Source of the DNA: Tilletia caries
Taxonomy: Eukaryota; Basidiomycota; Exobasidiomycetes; Tilletiales; Tilletiaceae
Length of the DNA stretch: 64,000 bases
Reading direction: 5' to 3'
Assembly: GCA_032718865.1 (NCBI GenBank)
Contig: JALUTQ010000040.1
Location: 1,485,651 to 1,549,650, forward strand
A program made the position numbers and the translations under genes. Below are positions 38,857-53,001 of this stretch, one piece after another. Numbering within the stretch: the stretch's first letter is position 1; every line of letters starts with the position of its first letter. The notes under the pieces were generated by a model. The model did no database searches. It had not been told where the DNA came from and saw only the letters and a program-made list of their open reading frames with translations.

Positions 38857-39513
38857 TCTTGGCTTGGGTGAGGGCAGAAAAGAACGCGCAAGTTGAATTG
38901 GGGTCCAGAGAGAGAGAGCAAAGGAGCTGTCCGAGCAGAGTACACACAGGGAATGAACAGAAGGAGAGGGGAGATAGATGGGAGAGTGCAAGAGAGAGAG
39001 AGAAGGACAGAAGGAGAGATAGAGGAGGGAAAGGAGAGTCAGTATTCGCGCGCACTGCAGGTGAAGATGAGCAGCGGAGGAGTGGCAGGCGGGCAGAGGA
39101 AGGTCGAGAGGAATCCGTCATTGGTTATTTAGGCAATACTTGTTTTGTCCTCGTGTAGCACAGGACAAGTTGCACTGTGCCTCTTGCTTGTGCCATAATC
39201 GGATCAGGTCTGTGTAAGGGTTTTAATCTTGCGGGAGGTCGCCTGCTGTTCGCTGCTGCTGCTGCTGCTGCTGCTGTTGCGAGTGGTAGGAAAGGAAATA
39301 TCGACTCACCCTCTGACAAAGGTCGTTGCGCTTGAGAAGTCGGGAGTCGGGACGTGCGCTCGGTGTGGAAGCAGGCAGTCAGGATCGTCAGCAAGAAGAA
39401 AAAGTGAGTGTGGAGTGTGGACGAGATGTGAGAGTCACGTGAGTCAAAGCCACGTGGGTTGCCGGCGGCTGGAGTGAATGTCCGATCCCGCATTTGCCGC
39501 CGGGCGGACCGTT
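38857..39513. other. Upstream region of the insertase gene
   Basis: 657 bases ending at the DUF6589 transposon. Contains GA-rich runs (38910-39030) and a GCT trinucleotide run at 39252-39275. No gene supported. Confidence 0.5.
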
Positions 39514-39553
39514 GTCTCGAACGAGACGCCTCCTGCTCCGCCAGGAGGGTCTC
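39514..39553 (+). repeat. Left terminal inverted repeat, outer part
   Basis: A palindrome GTCTCG-AA-CGAGAC (39514-39527), one base, then a hairpin with 7-bp stem CCTCCTG/CAGGAGG and six-base loop (39529-39548), then GTCTC, the copia B duplication. Confidence 0.85.
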
Positions 39554-39804
39554 AGTTGGAAACCGAGAGTCTGGCAAGCACAGTTACTTAGTCTCTCTTC
39601 CCGATTTCTTCTGCAGGGCCTCCCTCCGTTTCTCTCCACCCCATGCCTTTGCCCCTTGTACCCATGCTTCTATGAATACAACTACCACAAGCGGTCAATC
39701 AGCTGAACGTCGTGAACCTTTGAGAACAAGAAGACTCTTCATACAGGTCAGTCCTCTCCGGGTGACCCGGGGTCTCCGGACCCGGAGTAGGAGGATATCT
39801 AACT
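39554..39804 (+). repeat. 5' LTR of copia B
   Basis: 251 bp. Near its 3' end an 8-bp inverted repeat CTCCGGGT/ACCCGGAG (39756-39787) could fold into a stable hairpin in the RNA leader. Confidence 0.95.
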
Positions 39805-39821
39805 GGTTATGAGCTCAATCC
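39805..39821 (+). promoter_or_regulatory. Primer-binding site, half-tRNA initiator Met type
   Basis: GGTTATGAGCTCAATCC directly after the LTR. It is complementary to the anticodon-loop region of initiator tRNA-Met (CAT anticodon), the internal fragment used by Drosophila copia, rather than to a tRNA 3' CCA end. Confidence 0.7.
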
Positions 39822-39852
39822 TCCCCCAGCTACAACAACGGACTCTCCAACA

Positions 39853-41109
39853 ATGATGGACAGCACTCAAGACAGCCTCATCCAGGATCTCGACGCCCTG
39901 GCCCAAGGCGCCCTCAGCCGAAGCGCCACGAACGCTGCGCAAGACTCGGGCGGCCTCTCGGAACTCGAAACCCTGGCCTCGTTCTTTGAGCGCTCTCAAG
40001 GCCTCACCCGCTCTGAGGCAGCCGACAAGGCAGCCCAGATGTACATCGCGGGCAAGATCAAGACCGAGGCGGCCAGCCCTCGCCTGTCGCCGACTCCGAT
40101 CCCGAAGGCGAAAGACTGGGATGCGGAATTCAGCACCCACAAGAAGATTGCCGGCAACCAGCTCAAGCTCAGCAAGGCGAAGCAGAACTTCGTTCTGTGG
40201 CTCATGGGGTTCCGCAACCTCATCGACAACGTCCCGCTCGCTCAAGAACACTTGGAGGGAGTGGAGCACGATGTCGGGTTCCCGGGAGCACCTCTGTCCC
40301 CCCGCACGGAGAGGTACTGTTACGAGTTGGACAAGGAACTCGCTCGGGTCTTGCTACAGACACTCGAGCCCGAGGTATCGACAATCCTCGTTCCCCATCA
40401 CAACTCGGGTGAACGCCGAGCATCGGTGCTCTTTCGTACGCTGCGAAAGCAGCTGCTGCGCGATGACCCGGCGTCACAGGATCGCGTCGCCGAGACGATC
40501 CAAGGCCTCAAACAGAACACACACGACGTAACCACCTTGGCGGACACTTTCCGCTACTACTTCACATACTCCTCGCTCATCGGCAACCCAGTCGGTCAAG
40601 CCGACGAAGTGCGCTACTTCCTCAAGTCCCTTCATCCGCGCTACAACAGCTTCAAGCAGGCAGCGGCATTCCACCGCAGCACCTCGGAAGTTAGGAACGC
40701 CAGCTTCGACTACTTCGTCGAGCAGCTGCTACTTCAAGAGTCAAACATGCAAGGCGAATCGACCAGTGAGCACGCCTTCGCAGTCGCGATGCAGGCGTCA
40801 GGAACCCCCTCGGCGCAAGCACTCGTCGTCTACCAGCCGCAATCGTCGTCCCAGAAAGGAAAGGACCCCTCGCTTGGCCCAAAGTTCTCCGCGGCTAAGA
40901 AGAAGGGCTCCTCCAAGAACGGTGGCGGCGGTGGACGGCCTCACGACGGATGCCATCGCTGCCATCAGAAGGGACACTGGGCATCGGAATGCAAACTGTC
41001 CTGGGCGGAAGTCAATGCTTTGGTCAACCGCGGCAAGGGCCAGTCACCTACCGCGGCATTGGCGGCCCAGGAGCAGCAGGCGATGGTTGTGGCAACACGC
41101 CAGCAGTAG
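39853..41109 (+). CDS. gag: Copia B Gag
   Basis: ATG at 39853, TAG stop at 41107-41109, 418 residues. Contains the copia Gag core and a CCHC knuckle (CHRCHQKGHWASEC) near residue 375. Pol begins in the same frame after the UAG, with GAT as the next codon, the same arrangement as in copia A. Confidence 0.92.
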   Translation: MMDSTQDSLIQDLDALAQGALSRSATNAAQDSGGLSELETLASFFERSQGLTRSEAADKAAQMYIAGKIKTEAASPRLSPTPIPKAKDWDAEFSTHKKIAGNQLKLSKAKQNFVLWLMGFRNLIDNVPLAQEHLEGVEHDVGFPGAPLSPRTERYCYELDKELARVLLQTLEPEVSTILVPHHNSGERRASVLFRTLRKQLLRDDPASQDRVAETIQGLKQNTHDVTTLADTFRYYFTYSSLIGNPVGQADEVRYFLKSLHPRYNSFKQAAAFHRSTSEVRNASFDYFVEQLLLQESNMQGESTSEHAFAVAMQASGTPSAQALVVYQPQSSSQKGKDPSLGPKFSAAKKKGSSKNGGGGGRPHDGCHRCHQKGHWASECKLSWAEVNALVNRGKGQSPTAALAAQEQQAMVVATRQQ

Positions 41110-44100
41110 GATGAGGCCGGAATGCCGCCCATGGTCGCTTTGTGCGCTGGAAAGGGTCCATCCCTACTCATCAACTCGATGAGGTGGATACTCGACTCTG
41201 GCGCCTCGCACCACATGTGCCCCGACCGGGCATCATTCCGGACTTACCGCAAGATGGCGGATAGCGACACGAGGAGCGTCGCAGTGGCCAGTGGAGCCAG
41301 CCTCAAGGTGGCTGGTATGGGGACGATCGAACTGTCGTTCCCCATCAAAGGCAAGACCGAAACGTTCACACTCGGCAACGCCCTCCATGTTCCTGGACTC
41401 GCGGTGAACCTGATATCGGTACCGGTCCTCCAAGTCCAGGATGTCCCAGTCTTGTTCACGAGACAGGGAGCAACAATATACATGAAACATAACGAAATTT
41501 ACGCACAGCTGGACTCCGATCACAAGGCGACAGTCATCGAAGTACCAGTACGAGGTCCGCACACCTATGTAGTCCGGGAAGGAGCAGCAGGATCGCAACC
41601 ATCTCTCCCTCGGGCGACCGACGCAGGACACCTGGGTCGGGACCCGGCGACCGATAGCGGTGTAGGAACAACCGTGGTTGCTGGACGGGTCGGCGCATTG
41701 AGCGAAGCTGGCGGCTTAGCTAGTACCGACGAGATTGATGTTGGCAGCGGGCCGGTAACATCCGCTGGCATCGATACGGACGACAATGGGGGGGCTTGCC
41801 GAATGGTGAAGCTAATGTCGCTCCGGGCGCTGAAGGAGGGTGGGCCGACGGGCCTACTCAATCTGGCGTTAGTGTTGAGGCGATCGGCAAACATCCCGCC
41901 GACGTCGAAAGGACGGTAAAGTTCACCGTCCAAGTGGCCGAAGGAAAATACGGCAAACACCTCCTCTGGCACCGTCGCATTGCTCACTCCGGAAACGAGT
42001 GCCTCGCCTCGCTCGCCAAGCAAGGCAAGATACTCGACCTGACGGAGTCGCAAGTTCGCTCGTTTGGGAAACACCTGCGTGGAGACCAAGATGTCGAGAA
42101 CCCGGTTCAGCAAGAAAAGCAAGAGCCGGCTCAAGACACCCAACGAGCTTGTCCTCGTCGACATTGTCGGCCAGTTCACGGAGATAGCGGGGTTCCAGTA
42201 CTTCCTCACAGTCGTTGAGGCGTACTCGAGGAAGAATTGGGTCTTCTTACTGAAGTCAAAGGCGGAAGCCTTCCCGCTCCTACGCGACCACTGTGCTGCG
42301 ATGGAACGACACAAGGGACACAAGGTCCGAACGATCCGCTCGGACAACGGCGGAGAGTTCACGTCCAATGTGGCTAAGGAATGGGCAAAGGGCAAAGGGA
42401 TCAAGTGGGAATACACCACGCCTTACTCCAGCATCCAGAACGGGATTGCCGAGCGCATGAACCGCACGATTCAGGATAAGGCTCGGGCAATGCTGCATGC
42501 AGCTGGCACCAGTCATGAGTACTGGCCCAGTGCGATGCAAGCGGGGAGCTACCTAGTCAACCATCTACCAACGAAGGCGCTAGGTGGCAAGATCCCCGAG
42601 GAGCGCTGGGAGGGACAGAAGATCGACATGCCCCACCTTCGCGTTTGGGGATGTGTGGCCTGGATCAAGATCCATGATCAGCAGCGATCAGAAGGCAAGC
42701 TCTCTGCTAGAGGCCTGCGAGGAATGTTCATCGGCTATGCCGGTGATCGTAAGGCCTGGACCATTCTCACACCTTCGCATCCGACAAAGAAGGTGCATTA
42801 CTCCCGTGATGTGCGCTTCGATGAAGGGACAAGATTTGTTGATACGGTGCTCAGCGAGAAGAACCCGATGATGCCTCGTGCACACAGCTACGAGGATATG
42901 CTGGAGATGGAATGGGATAACCCCCATATTCCCCAGGTTGCGGTGATTGATTCTGATCTCCCTTCCGTCCAAGAACCCCCCTTTGCACCAGGAAGCCCCA
43001 GCCATCATCCCGGAGTCGATTGGTTCCGACACGGGATGGCAACAGATGGATGCGCCAAGGTCAAGCACACCGCAGCCAACACCAATGTCGCCGAGTCTGC
43101 TGGATATCGACCTTCTCCTTTCACCAAGGGAGATCCTCGCCACCCATTTGCCCGACGAGACTCTGGACATCCCATCCATGAGGTCCGTCGCTTCCCCAAG
43201 TCCTTCAGCCCAAGCCCCCCAACTTCGGGCTCCTGACACGCCAGCGGTAGCACCTGCTCCCGCAACCGGATCAAACGAGAGGATAGGGCCGATGACGGAG
43301 CGAGAGCTGCGTGCACAGCTTCGACATATCAAGCGGTTCAAGCAGCCTCTCACTCCCGGGTTTCAAGCCTTGTCCGTGTCGTTCCAGGAGTCGGAACAGA
43401 TGCGTTTAAGTGCGGACGGTCAAGAACTAGAGCCGGCGACTTATGCGGAGGCAAGAAGGCGGTCGGATTGGGAGAAGTGGAACAAGGCTATGGATGAGCA
43501 GATGGATGCTCTGGTCGGTATGCACACCTGGGATTTGGTCCAACTCCCTCCAGAGAGGAAGGCTATTGGTTCCAGGTGGGTATATAAGCTGAAGCTCGAT
43601 GAGGAGGGCAAAGCTGACAGATGGAAGGCGAGGTTGGTGGCCCAGGGGTTCACTCAAGTGGCTGGTGTGGACTACTTCGAAACGTTCGCTCCGGTCGCTC
43701 GCTTGGACAGCCTGCGGGTCATTTTGGCGTTGGCAGCACACTTTGGATGGGTAATCCATCAAGTTGATGTGGTCACGGCGTATCTCAATGGAGATTTGGA
43801 GGAGGAGGTGTACATCAGGCAGCCGCCGGGCTACGAGAAGGGTGGGTCGCGAAGGAAGAACATGGTGTGTAAACTTCGCCTCCCTCTCTACGGTCTCAAG
43901 CAGTTCGGACGGCAGTGGAACACCAAGTTCCACGACAAGCTCATCGCGCGCGGCTACACTCAGTGCAAGTCAGAGCCGTGCGTGTATGTGCGCCGGAAGG
44001 GTGGGAGCATTTCCATTGCTCTCATCTATGTCGATGACGTCCTGATTGTGGCGCCTACGGAAGCGGAGGTCAACGTCGAGAAGGAATGGCTCCGAGCCAC

Positions 44101-44995
44101 CTTTGATGTCACCGACGGCGGCCCTCTGCGTCACTTCCTTGGCCTCAAGATCACCCGTGAGAACGGCAAGGTCATACTGTCCCAGCGGTCGTACATCAAG
44201 GCAGTGCTCGAGCGATTCAACTTCAGCTTCGAGAAGCCCGCAAGTACACCGACTATGGACAAGACCCCTCAACGCGCTCCGGCCGATTACGAGCCAAGTC
44301 GTGAGATCATTCGCGTCTTTGCTTCAATGATCGGTTGCCTCAAGTGGATCGCTCAGACGGTTCGGCCCGACCTCATGTTCATCTGTGGTGTCCTTAGCCG
44401 ATTCCAGGCAAGGCCCATGCCGATTCACATGGAGGCGGCGAAACGAGCGATGCGGTTCCTACGCAAGACCGCTGAGGCGGACCTGGTCTACCAGCCGGGC
44501 ACCGACAGCATCCCCCGCCTATCAGGCTTCGCCGACGCCGATTTCGCTGGCGACAGCGAGACCTCAAGATCGACCACTGGGTTTGTCTTCTACGTTCAAG
44601 GCAACCCAGTGAGCTGGGCTTCGAGGCTCCAGACTTCCGTCTCTATGAGCACGGTGGAAGCGGAGTATATTGCGTTGGCGGAGGGATTGCGGGAAGGTCT
44701 CTGGCTCAGGAACCTCCTGTCCGAGCTCGGATATCCGGCTCAAACGCCATTCGAGCTGCACACGGACAACGAGGGAACTCGGTCTATTGCAGACAACCCG
44801 GAGGCGCACAAGAGGACAAAGCACATCGCGCTCCACTATCACGCCGTTAGGGAACGGGTGAAGCTGGGCGAGATTGCAGTCGTTCGGGTCGATACCGACG
44901 ACAATCCGGCAGATGTGTTCACCAAGCATCTGCCCGGTCCCAAACTCTTCGACGCGCGACTCAAACTGCACGTCGTCGAGCTCGAGAAGGAATAG
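41110..44995 (+). pseudogene. pol: Copia B Pol with three frame changes
   Basis: Protease WILDSGASHHM at 41187; integrase zinc HRRIAH near 41971 and catalytic RSDNGGEFTS and SIQNGIAERMN at 42331-42460; RT with SRWVYKLKLD, HQVDVVTAYLNG and LIYVDDVLIV; RNase H with ADADFAGD and STVEAEYIAL; stop at 44995. The frame changes at the G7 run 41789-41795, near TTTGGGAAA at about 42064, and near the C6 run at about 42973. Since the LTRs are identical, the breaks are either very recent or consensus errors at homopolymers. Everything downstream of about 43000 is a single long frame. Confidence 0.9.
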
Positions 44996-45034
44996 GCCCT
45001 TCGCGCGGGCAGTCGGCCCCTTAGAAGGTGGGAG

Positions 45035-45285
45035 AGTTGGAAACCGAGAGTCTGGCAAGCACAGTTACTTAGTCTCTCTTCCCGATTTCTTCTGCAGGGC
45101 CTCCCTCCGTTTCTCTCCACCCCATGCCTTTGCCCCTTGTACCCATGCTTCTATGAATACAACTACCACAAGCGGTCAATCAGCTGAACGTCGTGAACCT
45201 TTGAGAACAAGAAGACTCTTCATACAGGTCAGTCCTCTCCGGGTGACCCGGGGTCTCCGGACCCGGAGTAGGAGGATATCTAACT
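45035..45285 (+). repeat. 3' LTR of copia B
   Basis: 251 bp, identical by eye to the 5' LTR; preceded by a purine-rich tract and followed by the duplication GTCTC. Confidence 0.95.
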
Positions 45286-45290
45286 GTCTC

Positions 45291-45329
45291 GTGTCAAATG
45301 TGGAGTCTGCAAGTGGGAACGACCGACGG
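45291..45329 (+). repeat. Left terminal inverted repeat, inner part
   Basis: Continuation of the left inverted repeat after copia B. From TCAAATGTGG to CGACGG (36 bases) it is identical to the complement of 52754-52789. Confidence 0.9.
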
Positions 45330-46324
45330 TGCGGGTCGACCGCACCCATGAACCTCGTCTTCTCGGCAACGCCCAGCCTTCCTGCTGCTCAACACTCACA
45401 TCCATCACTGATCACTCGTTGTGCCTTGAGTGCGGACTCTTACCATCGTGCTGTGAGTATTTGGTGGCGTGTGGCACTGCGCAAAGATCGAACCAACTGC
45501 GGATTACGCCTTCATGCTTGTCACCCGTTAATGACATGGCTCACGCGTCTTCTCATATTCTTCTATCTTTTTCAACCCCTCTTCTTCCTTCCTCCTTTCC
45601 TATTCCTGTTGCCTTTCTTCTCTTCCCTTTCACAGGTATCAGGAGCATCGCCGGGCCTTCTTTCTGGTGGTCCCGCCCCGCTGCCGAGCCTGTGTGCTTA
45701 TTGTTGCCTGCTTCCGTTGTGAGTGGCTCGGCACCTCCACGGCCCCATGCCCTTCCCACTCTTCATCGACCCTCTCTTCTCAATTGACGTTTAGCCCAAC
45801 ATTGCATTCACAGCTTTTCGAGTCTCCGTCTCGGCGTCCGCCCCTCTCTTGTGGTTTTCCGGCTCAAGGCTTTACACGCGTTCGTCTCTGCAATATAAGC
45901 GATCATAACCCATAGAGCATCACACGGGAGACTTCAAGAGTGATATTGAGCGCTATATCTGGAACTGTGAGTAGCAGTCACTTGCCAATGCATCCGCAGA
46001 TCTCCAGGCTTTTATTTCTTGCATTTTGAGCTGGAATTCACTCATCCTCCTATTGATATCTTTATTGCAGTCTTCCGACCAGAAATCCGTCTGCCTTTCT
46101 GCTCGTAACAACCATCTGAGAGTTAGGCCTGGTTGTATTAATTTACTGCCAGCGGCGGGCGGCCTGCGTGTATCCTGCGTTATTACTGTTAACTTGTGAG
46201 TATGAAGAAGAATCAGAGTATCGGACATACGTTAAGTGTTAAGTGCCAAGTCACAAATGCTCAGCCGACCCTCGCCTACACGCTACACCGCTGACTGATC
46301 AAGTATCTCACACCTCATTATTCC
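45330..46324. other. Left internal region of the DUF6589 transposon
   Basis: About 1 kb upstream of the first recognisable DUF6589 exon. It should hold the promoter and first exon with the start codon. CT-rich at 45560-45630. I could not place an exon with confidence. Confidence 0.4.
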
Positions 46325-49300
46325 TTGATACGTCTCTGGCTGCAGAGTGTAGATTACAGACTACCCCGCGCGGCCGCGCCTTCCTCTCTCCTTCAGAAAT
46401 CATATTCAGCAGTCGAATACTCCAATCTCTCAATTTCGAACCAGGAACGTCGACAGGCTAAGTTGCGCGACATACTGCAATACATACGGCAACAAAACCT
46501 CTCCTTCCAAGAGTTCGTTGTCGGAGTGATAGGTTCGCAGGATCCAGATGTACGACTCTCCTCAACAAAATGGCTCGACAGTCATGCCAGTACGGATGCA
46601 TCGAAGTACGGTCCGACTGTCATCCTGTCCACAATGAGCAAAGCAGTGCGGAGTCGAGCAACCCCAGACCACGTTCACGGTTACAATTGTGCTTTGGCGG
46701 AGCTATCTACCTCGTGTTTTTTACAAGAACTGGAAGCTGCCGCGGCCGATAAACGTCTCAAGGTGCCCGCATCTATGAACGAGAAGCAAGGCCATAATCT
46801 TGAGGATGCGATTGCGGGAGGGTTCGGCGAGATCGAGACGGTCTACAAGACTTTAATGCCATCAACTATGGCTCTATTCTCGGTACTTGCTGGACGGGTT
46901 CCTCATCAACCCCAGGAAGAATCTCCCAGCCCCAAGGTCGGAGAGTCGACTCCAGACTCTCTTCTCTCTACCAATGCCATGGAGAATGGGGATCAGGTGG
47001 ATTCGATGGAGGTGGATGAGGAGGACGTCACGGAGGCTGAAATCCACATGGATAAGAAAGACATGGTGCGTATAATGAGGAGTGAACGTCACCTTGGTGG
47101 CTATGCTTGTCACACCGATGTTCTGACTTCTGACTGGTCTTCTATCTGGACAGTGTGTCATCACAGCTCTGTCGTGCCTGCTGGGGGCTCGAAGCACACG
47201 CATCAACCGCTTCCAGATGATCTTCGGTACTCTGTTTGCGATGCTACGAGTCCCAAAGCTGGCCCTCAGAGTGATGAACATGTGCGAGATCTGCGTTTCT
47301 TACAGCACCGCAGCCCGCGCGATGGAATCTATCTCATCGTCAGCAACGGACAAAGCCCACCAGCTCATGGAGGTACACCAGAACCGAGTTGCCTTCTTCT
47401 TCGACAACGTCAACATATCAGTCAAGCATGTTGTCCCAAGGCTGACTACTTCGAACGCCTCTGTTGCTTTGACATCCCGTACCTTATTCTCCTTACCCCC
47501 AGAGTGCAAGGTCATACTTCAATCCGATGTGGACGCTCTGTCAGGAATCAACAGGGACTTGGCAGGCATCCATTTGCTCCTGAAAAACGTCAGCCCCGGC
47601 GAAAACATCAACGACAACGATACTGTCTCGACTGGAGACTCAAAGGACATCATTCACCGGGCAGCAGTGTTGCACATTGGACGATCCCTGCTTCGGTTCC
47701 TGCGCGTCGATCAGTCCCGTCGCAAGACTCTGATGGCTTCACTTCGGCGTCGAGTCGCCAAGCATGTTTGGAACAAGCTGGAGCCATCAACAACAGTTGT
47801 TGTCCCGCTCAAGCTCGTCAACGTCAATGAGGGTACCGTGGAAGGAACAAAGTCCGTTCTCGAGCAGACCATAGCCGAGCTCAACCTTCGGGCTGGAGTC
47901 ACCTCTCCACTGCTGTTGGGGGGCGACCTTCTCACGGTGATGAATGTCAACGCAGCTCGCTACGCAGCTCGATGGGAACTGGACAAACAGAAACAGCTGA
48001 CGAATATATATGCTGTAGCAGGTCCATGGCATCTGCTGTTGAACTGGGTATATATGATGTTCCACCTGTACGGTGAGACGGTCCGCTCGTGCGCCTTGGA
48101 TCGCTTGCGTCAAGCGCTCGGCAGAGGCAAAACGGAACTCGACCTCAAACGTCCTCAGTTCGACGAGGGTTGGGCGCTGCTGTAGCACGTTTGGGAGGGA
48201 CGAATTCTGTCCGCAATGGGGTCAGTTAAACATCACACTTCACAGCCGTGTGTTTCCAGAAGCGTTATGCTGATGCTAGCCCCCCTTCCTCCAATTCTGC
48301 GTACATCTTGTAGACACGAGCTGGCAACAGCCGGAGAGACCATCGATGATTGGAACCCAGACACCAAAACGTTCTTCGACGCTATCGATAGACTGTACGA
48401 GAATCATCTCACCCAGAACGCCCTTTCTCAAGCCCGGGATGCCAATGACAACGATAGAGCGACCTCAATTTTGTTCATGCGGGACTGTGTCGTGGGTCTT
48501 GAATACGCAGAGGCAATCAAAGCGGGCGACCTTGGAAGAATGGCAGAGGTAGAGAAACCTCTCTGCCTATCGTTCTACGGCGCGGGTCAAACCAAATACG
48601 GGTCGTTGCTTTTGGATCGAGCCCTCATCGACCGTGAACAACCAGTCGTGGCGAAGACTCTTCGAGCAGCTCAGTTGGTCAATCTTCACGGGCGTAAGAA
48701 CGGATGGCAGGGAGCGGACCTATATCAAGAGCAGCTCAATCGTAGATTACTGGTGAGTATGGGTTCATCGGCCTTCTTCATGCTTAGACCTGTTGCACAT
48801 CAATGCTTGCTCTCTTACCCTTAATCTCTCTGCTCTCCTCTTGCATCGCAGATGTATCACCCTAGTCAGTCACCAAATCACACAGACATTCGATATGAAG
48901 ACAGGATGTCAGCGTTTGTTGGGTTGGGGCAGAGGATGGTCGCTAAGGTACAACGCTCGCTGGACATGATGACGGACTCTCGGCACAAGAAGAAGAAGGC
49001 ATGCGAGGCGGACATTAGGCTCCTGGCAAAAGATGCAGATACACATCGTCTGAACGTTGCCCAAGAGCGTCCTCGTACAGAACTACCGCCATCCTCGAAC
49101 AACTCAAAGAAGAAAAGCAAGATGTCGGCAATGGAACAAGCGAAGCAAGTGTGGAGCGAGAACAAGGAGCAGACGACGGCAAAGGATGTGATCGAGATGG
49201 GACACCTGAAGCTCATTGGGGGTGCATTACAGCGATACAAAACCAAAAACAGGGATCTTCGAGCGCGGGACGTGGACGTTTACCAGATTGCTACTGGACG

Positions 49301-49487
49301 GGAGAGCCCGGAGCCGGGACCAAACGACGGGCCACACGGCCGCGCAGAGCAGGGAATTCCTGGAGCAGGAGGGGCGGGAGAAGCTCTTCCGGACGACGAC
49401 GCCGTGAACTGGGCTGAACATCAGCTGCTGGAAGATGCCGGCTGTCGTCAAGAAGAGATGGAAGAAGGCGAAGTCAGTGATGACTGA
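46325..49487 (+). pseudogene. DUF6589-type transposon protein, one in-frame stop
   Basis: Recognisable coding starts soon after 46325 (true start unknown; that frame opens only with a TTG). Exons ...-47065, 47154-48220, 48314-48752 and 48852-49487 join in phase. The pattern matches the DUF6589 family seen widely in mushroom-forming fungi: NLSFQEFVVGVIGS near the start, VCVITALSCLLGARSTRIN, a block with CEICVSYSTAARAM, FFFDNVNIS, then LLLGGDLLTVMNVNAARY and AGPWHLLLNW. A TAG at 48183-48185 lies inside exon 2, yet the frame continues as HVWEGRILSAMG into a phase-correct intron, so the stop looks like a point mutation. The C-terminus is charged and ends EEGEVSDD. Biochemical function unknown; position suggests the transposase or its partner. 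Confidence 0.72.
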
Positions 49488-49516
49488 TGCATGAACATGA
49501 TGGGAATATACAGCAA

Positions 49517-52317
49517 CTACATTACCACCATCCCAAATAAACTCACATGCAATGTTTTGGAGACTTTTAAGTAGGACGTGATGGTCGCGGTGCTGGGTGG
49601 CTGAGGAATGCACCTCTGGAGCTGATGTGATGCATGACCTCCGACCTCCGTGTTTGAGGCCGAATACGATTTGCACCACTGGTCAACTGCAAGGGCTAGA
49701 GAGTCGATGATGCCGGGATAGATCAGAGAGACCAAAGGACCTAGGTCCTCCACCAGCAGCTCGGTAGTAAGTTCTTCTTCCCGACCACGACTGGCAAGGA
49801 AGCGCGTGGTCAGAGCAAGGATGCGCTCTGCCACAAGATCAGGTAAGAGCGCGCGGGAAGGCAGAAGGGAGGGAAGTTGCCGGCTCTTGTGTGTTGTAGA
49901 TCGCCAAAGGATCAAAGCAGCTTTGAGGCTCTGCTGTACCACCAAGAACTCCGGATGGGCCGGTGGAGCTGACACGACCGAACGAGAGGATGAGGAGCTG
50001 GCGGCGGTCGTGAGGGCTGTACCCAGAGTGGCTGATGCTGTAGAGCTGGAAAAAGCTGCTGCTGCCAGACTGCCGGAGCAGGGGCGCGAGGTGCAGCAAA
50101 ATTCGGCTGTGACAGATGTCGGTGGTTTGTGTGTGGAGGCAGCGAGAAGAAATTCGTTCGAAGGGTTGTCCGAGCACTCCGCAATGTGGTCTGGAATAGT
50201 CCAGAGCCCACCTTTAACACATCGCAATGAGAACAAAACCTCTTCGACCGTCCGCAAGTTGAGGCGGTTCTCCGAAATGATCGTTTGCCTGACGCATACG
50301 TTCAAGTCGGTTATCCGCCGAAGACCTGCTGAGAGGGCGCTGCGCTGACGCTCGGCGTGAGCGGAGATCGTCATGGTCTCGTTTCCGGAGTCAACGACGC
50401 TCCAACGCTGCGCCAGTAGGCTCGAGCGTCCGGGTTTCGACTTTACGCGCATGGTTCGCCCAAAGTGTTGAGCCAGATCGAGAACGTCGTTGGGGATCTC
50501 GAACTGAACGACATGATCGATGTCTGGGAGATCGATGCCCAGACCTCCTGCTTCAGTCGCAATCAGGACACGCACGTGGCCTCCAGGCTGAAATGCGTTC
50601 GAGATCGTGTCCAGCTTAAATTCAGAAGAGGACAATGCTGTAAATGGTCGGACGATACCATCAAAGGCAGGTCCGAAGCTGTCGAAATGATGCTGCAGGG
50701 CTGCCGCCGCCTCGTACGCCGCCGCTCTCGTCCGCACGTAGATGAGGGTCTTTGGGACCGCCTGTGGGGAGGATGGGGCGATGTGAAGAGAGAGATTAGA
50801 TCATTGAAAGAGCCAGATGAGTGTGCCAGGGGGGAGACCGTGTAAGCAACGTTCGGTCGATCTACGCCGGCTTCGATCGCGAACGTGTGTTTTGCTCCAA
50901 AATCGAGCAAAGGCAGTATGGAACGAACGGTCGCCGCAGGAAGCGTTGCAGATACTGCCAGAAGGGGAAGGTGAGCTCCGAGACGAGTGCGTAAGGTCTT
51001 TATCCTGCTGAAAGCAGGGCGGAATGGCAGGGCAGATCTCGCCGAGGGTGTAAGACCCCACGTCTGGACCACATGAGCCTCGTCGACGACCAGGGCTCGC
51101 AGTCGACCTTTGAAGATCGGATCTTTCAAGAGGTCCTGCACAGATGGATTGTCGAGGACTGCCTCAGGCGACGCAAACACCAAATGAGCGTGCTCCGAGA
51201 TGATCTTTTTGCGAAGATGCTGTCGTCTGAGCTCTTTGATTCGGTTGTGGCCGACTTCAGATTCTGCACTGCTAATGAAGAATTGACGAACACATGAACA
51301 AGGCAATGGTAAATCAGCAAACTGAACGCATTTGTCAACAGCGGATCAGCGATGACAGAACGTAGCCCATCAGACCTTCAAGCCACCCCACATTCGACAA
51401 AGAAAAGACATTCTCCATCAGATGCCAGCTGCCGCAGGCTAGCAGAGTAGCAGGCGTCGGCCGTCACCACGAAGCCATCCTTCATTCTCTGTGCCTTCCA
51501 ACACCACACTGTGCATCGAATATATAGTGACACTCCATCCTCCATACGACCATACCTCTCTGTCTGCCGGCTGCCCTTCCCTCACGCTAGGTCCTCGGAG
51601 CTCGTCCACCCACTCACTCACTGACGCACCGAGCCCCTACCCACAACCACACGTCTGAGACTCAGGAGACAGGAAGATACTCACTTTTTGACCGTATAGA
51701 GAGACTCAGAGGTAACTTGACTGAGAGACACGGCCCGAATCTTGGTGTCGCGGTATTTGCCGACCTAGATGAGAACAAGCAATGAGGCAAGGAAGAGAAC
51801 GCAAGGTCAGAAAGAGTTAACGCGAGCATGGCAAATTGGCAGGTAACATAGAACAGCGCGACGCAACATCCAGGGACTACTCACCTGGTCGGCTTCTAGT
51901 GCGATGAGAGGACAGATAACCATGATGGTGTGCTGTGGATATAGAAGTGCCAGCAACTCCCATATGAGGGATTTCCCAGATCCTTCCTGTAGCGGCTCCA
52001 TAGATGCCGTCCCAGCCGTGATACGTTCGCAATGCAGCTTCGAGCTGCTCTTCGCGAGGCTGGAATTTGGGATCGCCCCGGAAGACGCGAACAAGATCGA
52101 TTAAGGCCTGTACTTGCTCGGCAAACGGCGCATCTGCGTTAAGGGCTGGAGGGGCACTCTCTGACGAGACTGTGTTCATGCTTGTTGGTGCGCCCGTCGC
52201 CTGCTTTGCACCGCCAGCGCGATCCACATCTTGACTGAGCCGCTCACTGCGCCGCCGCTTTCGCGCAGGTCCTTCTTCGTCATCAGAGACTCGATTTGTG
52301 ATATCTTTAAGAGCCAT
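49517..52317 (-). pseudogene. RecQ-like helicase of the DUF6589 transposon, frameshifted
   Basis: Start ATG at 52317. Exons 52317-51885, 51764-51685 and from 51271 downward. SF2 motifs: Walker A (GSGKSLIWELL), CPLIALEADQ, FASPEAVL, VVDEAHVVQTWG, LLAVSATLP, then helicase-C VRVLIATEAGGLGIDLPD and the arginine finger AQHFGRTMR. Exon 1 carries an apparent 4-bp tandem duplication (51981-51988) inside the Walker A codons; without it, all exon phases close. A second frame change lies near 50760-50785 between the two helicase lobes. The C-terminal 200 residues after the core are Ser/Ala-rich and unfamiliar. RecQ helicases unwind branched DNA 3' to 5'. Subtelomeric RecQ genes (TLH) are an alternative reading, but the inverted repeats enclose this one. 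Confidence 0.78.
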
Positions 52318-52753
52318 AGAAGATGAAGGCTGATAGGCGATAGCTGTAAAGGTAGATACTGGACGCTGGATGTACGAGTGATGGTCAAGACTCAAGACAA
52401 GATCAAGATTCAAGAGACGCGTGAGAGTTGAGACTGCTAATGAGATGGCGTGTCGTCGCAAACTTGCGATATCAGACAGGCAGACCTCAGACCTCCGATT
52501 TCACAGCTCCGCTCCCTCCACAATCCACATCCAGAAAGAGCAGCTGGATAGCCAAACCTCATTTCTGCAGCCTGCGCGCTGAATTTTCCACTTTGTTCAG
52601 GGCTGTGTGGAAGGCCACCAGGACCATCAATGCACCTCAAATTTGAACAGGAAGAACATGTACATACATTGAGAAGCTGTCCAAAATTATGGGGGAACTT
52701 GTTAAGTGAGATCAAGAGCAATCTGGACTCCAAGAGGGGGCAAAACGCGGTTG
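52318..52753. other. Right internal region of the DUF6589 transposon
   Basis: 436 bases between the helicase start and the right inverted repeat; presumed helicase promoter. Nothing further recognised. Confidence 0.5.
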
Positions 52754-52832
52754 CCGTCGGTCGTTCCCACTTGCAGACTCCACATTTGAGACGAGACCCC
52801 CCCGCCACGACGGGGGGCGTCTCGGCCGAGAC
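52754..52832 (-). repeat. Right terminal inverted repeat
   Basis: Inverse of the left repeat. Read outward it has the identical 36-base core, then a hairpin with stem CCCCCCG/CGGGGGG (52798-52817), one base, and the perfect palindrome GTCTCGGCCGAGAC (52819-52832). Confidence 0.9.
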
Positions 52833-52953
52833 AAGGCGGACCGCGGACCGGAGTTCCAGAGTCTGGCGATCATTCCTGATCCTGAGTCCTGACCTGGGTC
52901 CTGGATTCGCTCCTGTCTGTCCTTTGACCTTCACCATCTCGATCTTCATCTCC

Positions 52954-52971
52954 CACTCACTCACTCACTCA
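52954..52971. repeat. (TCAC)n microsatellite
   Basis: About four to five TCAC units 30 bases upstream of the chitin deacetylase start; the complement of the GAGT-class tracts upstream of other genes here. Confidence 0.7.
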
Positions 52972-53001
52972 GCAGTCACACTCCTTTTGCACAGCCACAC
53001 G

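Follow-up and report, generated by a model that had tools for sequence, protein, structure and literature searches.

A transposon carrying a DUF6589 gene and a gene for a RecQ-like helicase was studied in a stretch of 64,000 nucleotides from Tilletia caries (contig JALUTQ010000040.1, positions 1,485,651 to 1,549,650; G000:C35:1485651-1549650), hereafter the window. The two genes are convergent and lie between inverted termini, outside of which a perfect 9-bp duplication, GGCGGACCG, is found. The features are, in window coordinates:

39503-39511, no strand: left target-site duplication GGCGGACCG, identical to the 9-mer at 52835-52843
39512-52834: transposon, delimited by its inverted termini and the flanking 9-bp duplication
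39512-39553, plus strand: outer part of the left inverted terminus, with TT, box GTCTCG (39514-39519), inverse box CGAGAC (39522-39527), hairpin arms and the start of a second box; recognised from its sequence, with other copies and the F5 and F6 families showing the same order
39529-39535 and 39542-39548: hairpin arms of the left terminus, followed by the start of the second GTCTCG box
39554-45285, plus strand: copia-type long terminal repeat (LTR) element with identical LTRs of 251 nt, not part of the transposon
45286-45290, no strand: GTCTC duplication from the copia insertion, the other copy being 39549-39553
45291-45329, plus strand: inner part of the left inverted terminus
46325-49487 (ends approximate), plus strand: DUF6589 gene with introns, putative transposase; Pfam DUF6589 match at 47619-48749
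49570-52461 (ends approximate), minus strand: RecQ-like helicase gene with at least two exons
52754-52834, minus strand: right inverted terminus of 81 nt, with box, inverse box, hairpin and box; arms differ from those on the left
52835-52843, no strand: right target-site duplication GGCGGACCG, a perfect 9-bp match to the left copy

The inverted termini are real. Each comprises 81 nt, the left one in two parts (39512-39553 and 45291-45329) because the copia element inserted there; once this is removed the termini are inverse copies, as an earlier note on this DNA had claimed, with 45286-45329 being 98% complementary to 52754-52797. That note placed the element at 39514..52832 with 79-bp repeats: the repeats stand, the limits fall two bases short at each end, and the duplication GGCGGACCG had been overlooked. 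Its size of 7.6 kb is borne out by arithmetic on the coordinates (7586 bp without the copia element and the 5-bp duplication of the latter), and Pfam and genome searches agree with its placing of convergent DUF6589 (plus strand) and RecQ-like (minus strand) genes inside the repeats. The copia insertion is recent; the 5' part of the copia element has further 100% matches on contigs C4 and C9.

A second, uninterrupted copy of the transposon lies at G000:C9:363898-371571. It is 98.6-98.7% identical to the window copy in two aligned blocks and has its own flanking 9-bp duplication, AGCAGCGAG; its left end aligns with the right end in the window at 86.6% identity over 82 columns. The two copies are independent insertions of one element, and since the second is uninterrupted and has a duplication of its own, the inverted-end structure in the window is not a product of chance. 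Both copies are decayed. In the window the D, D and E motifs of DUF6589 are present and the DUF6589 region contains one in-frame stop, while the N-terminal open frame of the helicase breaks off at the Walker A motif; in the C9 copy Walker A is intact and an excess of about 80 bases breaks the DUF6589 region. Elsewhere in the genome there are DUF6589 loci whose domain matches contain no internal stop.

The helicase family was assigned on the C9 copy. By Pfam, Helicase_C scored above its cut-off and DEAD just under; the best NCBIfam rows were DpdF (77.0 bits) and the RecQ family (72.6 bits), both far under their cut-offs, and the best PDB sequence matches were RecQ, RecQ5, WRN and BLM chains. 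On these matches RecQ-like seems a fair name.

As regards the surroundings, an open frame adjoining the C9 copy (L067:83-763) scores 23.6 bits with the Cas12f1-like TNB domain of Pfam, short of the cut-off of 26.3, and is possibly a Fanzor/TnpB-like gene. In the window the transposon ends on its right side about 160 bases upstream of a candidate start of a polysaccharide deacetylase gene (52835-53000), the promoter of which could be affected by the insertion.

Recurrence of the gene pair in the genome

The genome searched comprises 38.1 Mb in 40 contigs. Matches were clustered into loci by strand with a 3-kb gap, and match counts are lower bounds. PF20231 (DUF6589) gave at least 75 matches that form 48 loci, and the helicase open frame of the C9 copy, used as query, gave at least 57 matches that form 47 loci. 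A convergent helicase was found within 6 kb at 42 of the 48 DUF6589 loci; at one locus the nearest helicase is on the same strand and at five there is none. Conversely, DUF6589 stands beside 42 of the 47 loci for the helicase. The chance expectation for pairing is about 1.5% by a simple count that ignores orientation, and a chance neighbourhood of two genes is ruled out by this comparison, bearing in mind that the 42 pairs include families of near-identical copies and are not independent. Some paired helicases have as little as about 26-30% identity to that of the window family, and the association of DUF6589 with the helicase is therefore old.

Families were numbered F1 to F7, with F1 being the window family. 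F2, present on contigs C23 and C27 with a helicase that is about 30% identical, has inverted ends of about 145-155 nt. At C23 it is flanked by an exact duplication, GCTATAGGG, and at C27 by TGGCCGAT, in which 8 of 9 positions match by eye and where the right end carries an insertion. For F5 (C36) both ends were found, together with a 10-bp duplication, CTTGTGGTGA, identified by eye. For F6 and F7 one end each was found, the other not being detected in the 2-kb stretches examined. Hence among five insertions examined the duplication is exact with 9 bp in three, exact with 10 bp in one, and matches at 8 of 9 positions in one.

The suggestion of the earlier note that the pair forms a mobile unit is supported by the inverted ends, the target duplications and the recurrence of the pair. 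It had named two findings that would speak against it: DUF6589 and RecQ genes lying apart elsewhere, and inverted repeats restricted to this site. In this genome the genes do lie together, and other pairs, too, are enclosed by inverted ends and duplications of 9-10 bp.

Terminal inverted repeats are a defining feature of AcademH transposons. They occur here in the window element (81 nt), in F2 and at both ends of F5; a helicase is encoded by the window element and stands convergent at the 42 loci given above; and four of the five insertions have exact duplications of 9, 9, 9 and 10 bp. According to an excerpt of PMC10045372, AcademH duplications measure 9 or 10 bp, against 3 or 4 for AcademX, a length tied to the encoded helicase and nuclease. 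Because a helicase and 9-10 bp duplications are published features of AcademH, filing the element there is probable, the comparison being with a description and not with an Academ reference sequence. We consider it most likely that this is an AcademH-type DNA transposon, by now decayed, with a DUF6589 transposase of the DDE type and an assisting RecQ-like helicase. That it represents an undescribed system, as had been proposed, is improbable given what the same excerpt states on helicase and duplication.

Architecture of the ends

The ends of F1, F5 and F6 consist of TA or TT, a box GTCTSG, a short spacer, the inverse box, a variable loop or hairpin and the box again. The box reads GTCTCG in F1 and GTCTGG in F5 and F6, its three copies changing together. 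In F1 and F5 the two ends of a single element have unlike loops. The hairpin arms of F1 are CCTCCTG/CAGGAGG at one end and CCCCCCG/CGGGGGG at the other, so that pairing is kept.

Box order was tested by means of 2000 shuffles on 12 end sequences, several of which are copies of one family. The order was found with an exact 6-mer in seven of the 12 ends, for which 2 to 6 of 2000 shuffles did equally well, and with a 5-mer in one (57 of 2000). Both F2 ends and one F7 end yielded only a 4-mer, which was not significant (337, 461 and 482 of 2000), and the other F7 end showed no box order in this test. Judged from these sequences, the order box, inverse box, box is solid for F1, F5 and F6 and is not supported for F2 and F7. 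F2 has a longer dyad instead, CCCAGCCCC / GGGGCTGGG, noted by eye.

Such ends could be explained either as repeated transposase-binding sites or as fold-back ends. Under the latter explanation the ends would form single-stranded hairpin intermediates during cleavage or replication that are opened by the RecQ-like helicase, instead of undergoing ordinary cut-and-paste by a DDE enzyme; this is compatible with the AcademH filing. Predicted single-strand folding of ten ends, compared with shuffles, gave z-scores of -2 or lower in eight, and in seven the main predicted stem begins about 10 nt from the terminus, which is in favour of folding, as is the fact that the arms of the window family differ between the left and right ends yet remain complementary. 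On the other hand, the F2 left end has no excess folding (z 0.05), the C36 right end reaches only -1.97, in F6 it is the first two boxes that are predicted to pair, and the F7 stem begins nearer to the end. Furthermore, boxes in alternating orientation also have the look of repeated protein-binding sites, and clean duplications of 9-10 bp are in keeping with ordinary strand transfer by a DDE enzyme. We regard hairpin intermediates as unlikely. Equally doubtful is the stronger form, by which DUF6589-RecQ transposons would be a distinct lineage with fold-back ends, the opening of the folds by the helicase being an obligate step of transposition.

End sequences also occur apart from complete elements. 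Among the matches listed for the F6 left end as query, 21 of 42 places agree with the first 96 nt of this end at 93% identity. Two of these (L083 and L084) have a common interior, and no second end was found within about 430 bases. At C1:1294258 (L039:1501), 42 nt of the window-family left end, unchanged from the second base, precede unrelated sequence; this is a terminal module common to another element. These places and the F6-type ones look like non-autonomous or other relatives, for which second ends were not found. Three overlapping F6-type end matches stand in a row at G000:C21:395766-395972. In addition, TTCTCTCGGCCGAGAC occurs in pairs, both members being on the same strand at a distance of about 2.1-2.2 kb (G000, C5:1004331/1006435, C3:1305311/1307410, C39:809632/811815 and C33:503263/505488), perhaps another repeat family.

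DUF6589 as putative transposase

DUF6589 proteins have a conserved D, D, E triad. One structural model of moderate confidence shows the strand and helix order of an RNase H-like fold with the Hermes transposase as best match; a second model was unusable. With Foldseek nothing in PDB or among viral models matched at E <= 0.001, and a profile search of PDB with DUF6589 alignment A3 gave a single weak match, to a small S protein (E 0.091). From triad and model we infer that DUF6589 is the transposase of the element and of DDE type. Three protein searches (E <= 0.001), each of which scored only the roughly 8000 candidates that share most words, retrieved 6, 6 and 1 proteins. These are eight distinct proteins, seven of them from Tilletia and one a JGI protein, and the closest by identity is from T. 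controversa (97% over 59% of the query).

Transposition, be it by cut-and-paste or by copying, would then proceed as follows. DUF6589 would recognise the inverted ends, probably via the repeated GTCTSG boxes, cut them and join them to target DNA with a stagger of 9-10 bp, which would give rise to duplications of this length. The RecQ-like helicase may assist by unwinding DNA, be it at the ends, at hairpins folded back within them or at the junction formed in strand transfer.

It could be argued that a DUF6589 DDE transposase with a RecQ-like helicase constitutes a separate, undescribed superfamily that reached a 9-10 bp duplication independently of Academ. Pfam-A and NCBIfam scans (four and three proteins, respectively) show no transposase family for DUF6589, a literature search found no paper on DUF6589 and PF20231 only in an unrelated context, and our comparison with Academ is by description, without a reference sequence. 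Nevertheless, AcademH as described agrees in helicase, duplication length, inverted ends and a host among the basidiomycetes. The original AcademH paper, reportedly Kojima 2020, Mob DNA 11:15, may moreover already give this transposase or the end structure. A separate superfamily thus has a low probability. The assignment of DUF6589 as transposase and the ends with box, inverse box, loop and box, present in three of five families, are possibly new.

Pfam lists DUF6589 as a domain of unknown function, and its likely job is that of DDE transposase of helicase-bearing transposons. Fungal genes annotated as DUF6589 would thereby become candidate transposon genes, not host genes. With many divergent versions of the two-gene unit in one genome, several of them flanked by target duplications, the role of the helicase in such transposons becomes approachable, and ends with boxes and hairpins in a set order form a concrete substrate for tests.

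Comparison with known transposons

Helitrons also occur in fungi and encode a helicase. They encode a HUH nuclease and are not known to have inverted ends or to duplicate their target; the presence of both features here rules them out. Elements of the hAT type have 8-bp duplications and are not known to carry a helicase gene, and Hermes has 7-10% identity to DUF6589.

Target duplications of Kolobok elements are TTAA. A Kolobok-type transposon with a RecQ helicase, such as KolobokH, the other fungal lineage described with one, is very improbable, since the exact duplications GGCGGACCG, AGCAGCGAG, GCTATAGGG and CTTGTGGTGA have 9-10 bp and are not TTAA. Less firmly, the convergent order on opposite strands in 42 pairs speaks against it as well; orientation alone does not exclude Kolobok because the rhodophyte Kolobok-1_CCri, according to part of PMC9587614, has its RecQ helicase on the complementary strand. 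The likeness of KolobokH and Kolobok-1_CCri to the present elements thus lies in the RecQ helicase, as described in the excerpts concerned, and the difference in the duplication.

AcademH remains the closest known system. An excerpt of PMC10799480 describes AcademH as low-copy and present in Basidiomycota, Ascomycota and Mucoromycota, whereas dozens of loci are found here; helicase, duplications of 9 or 10 bp and a host among the Basidiomycota are common to both, and inverted ends complete the likeness.
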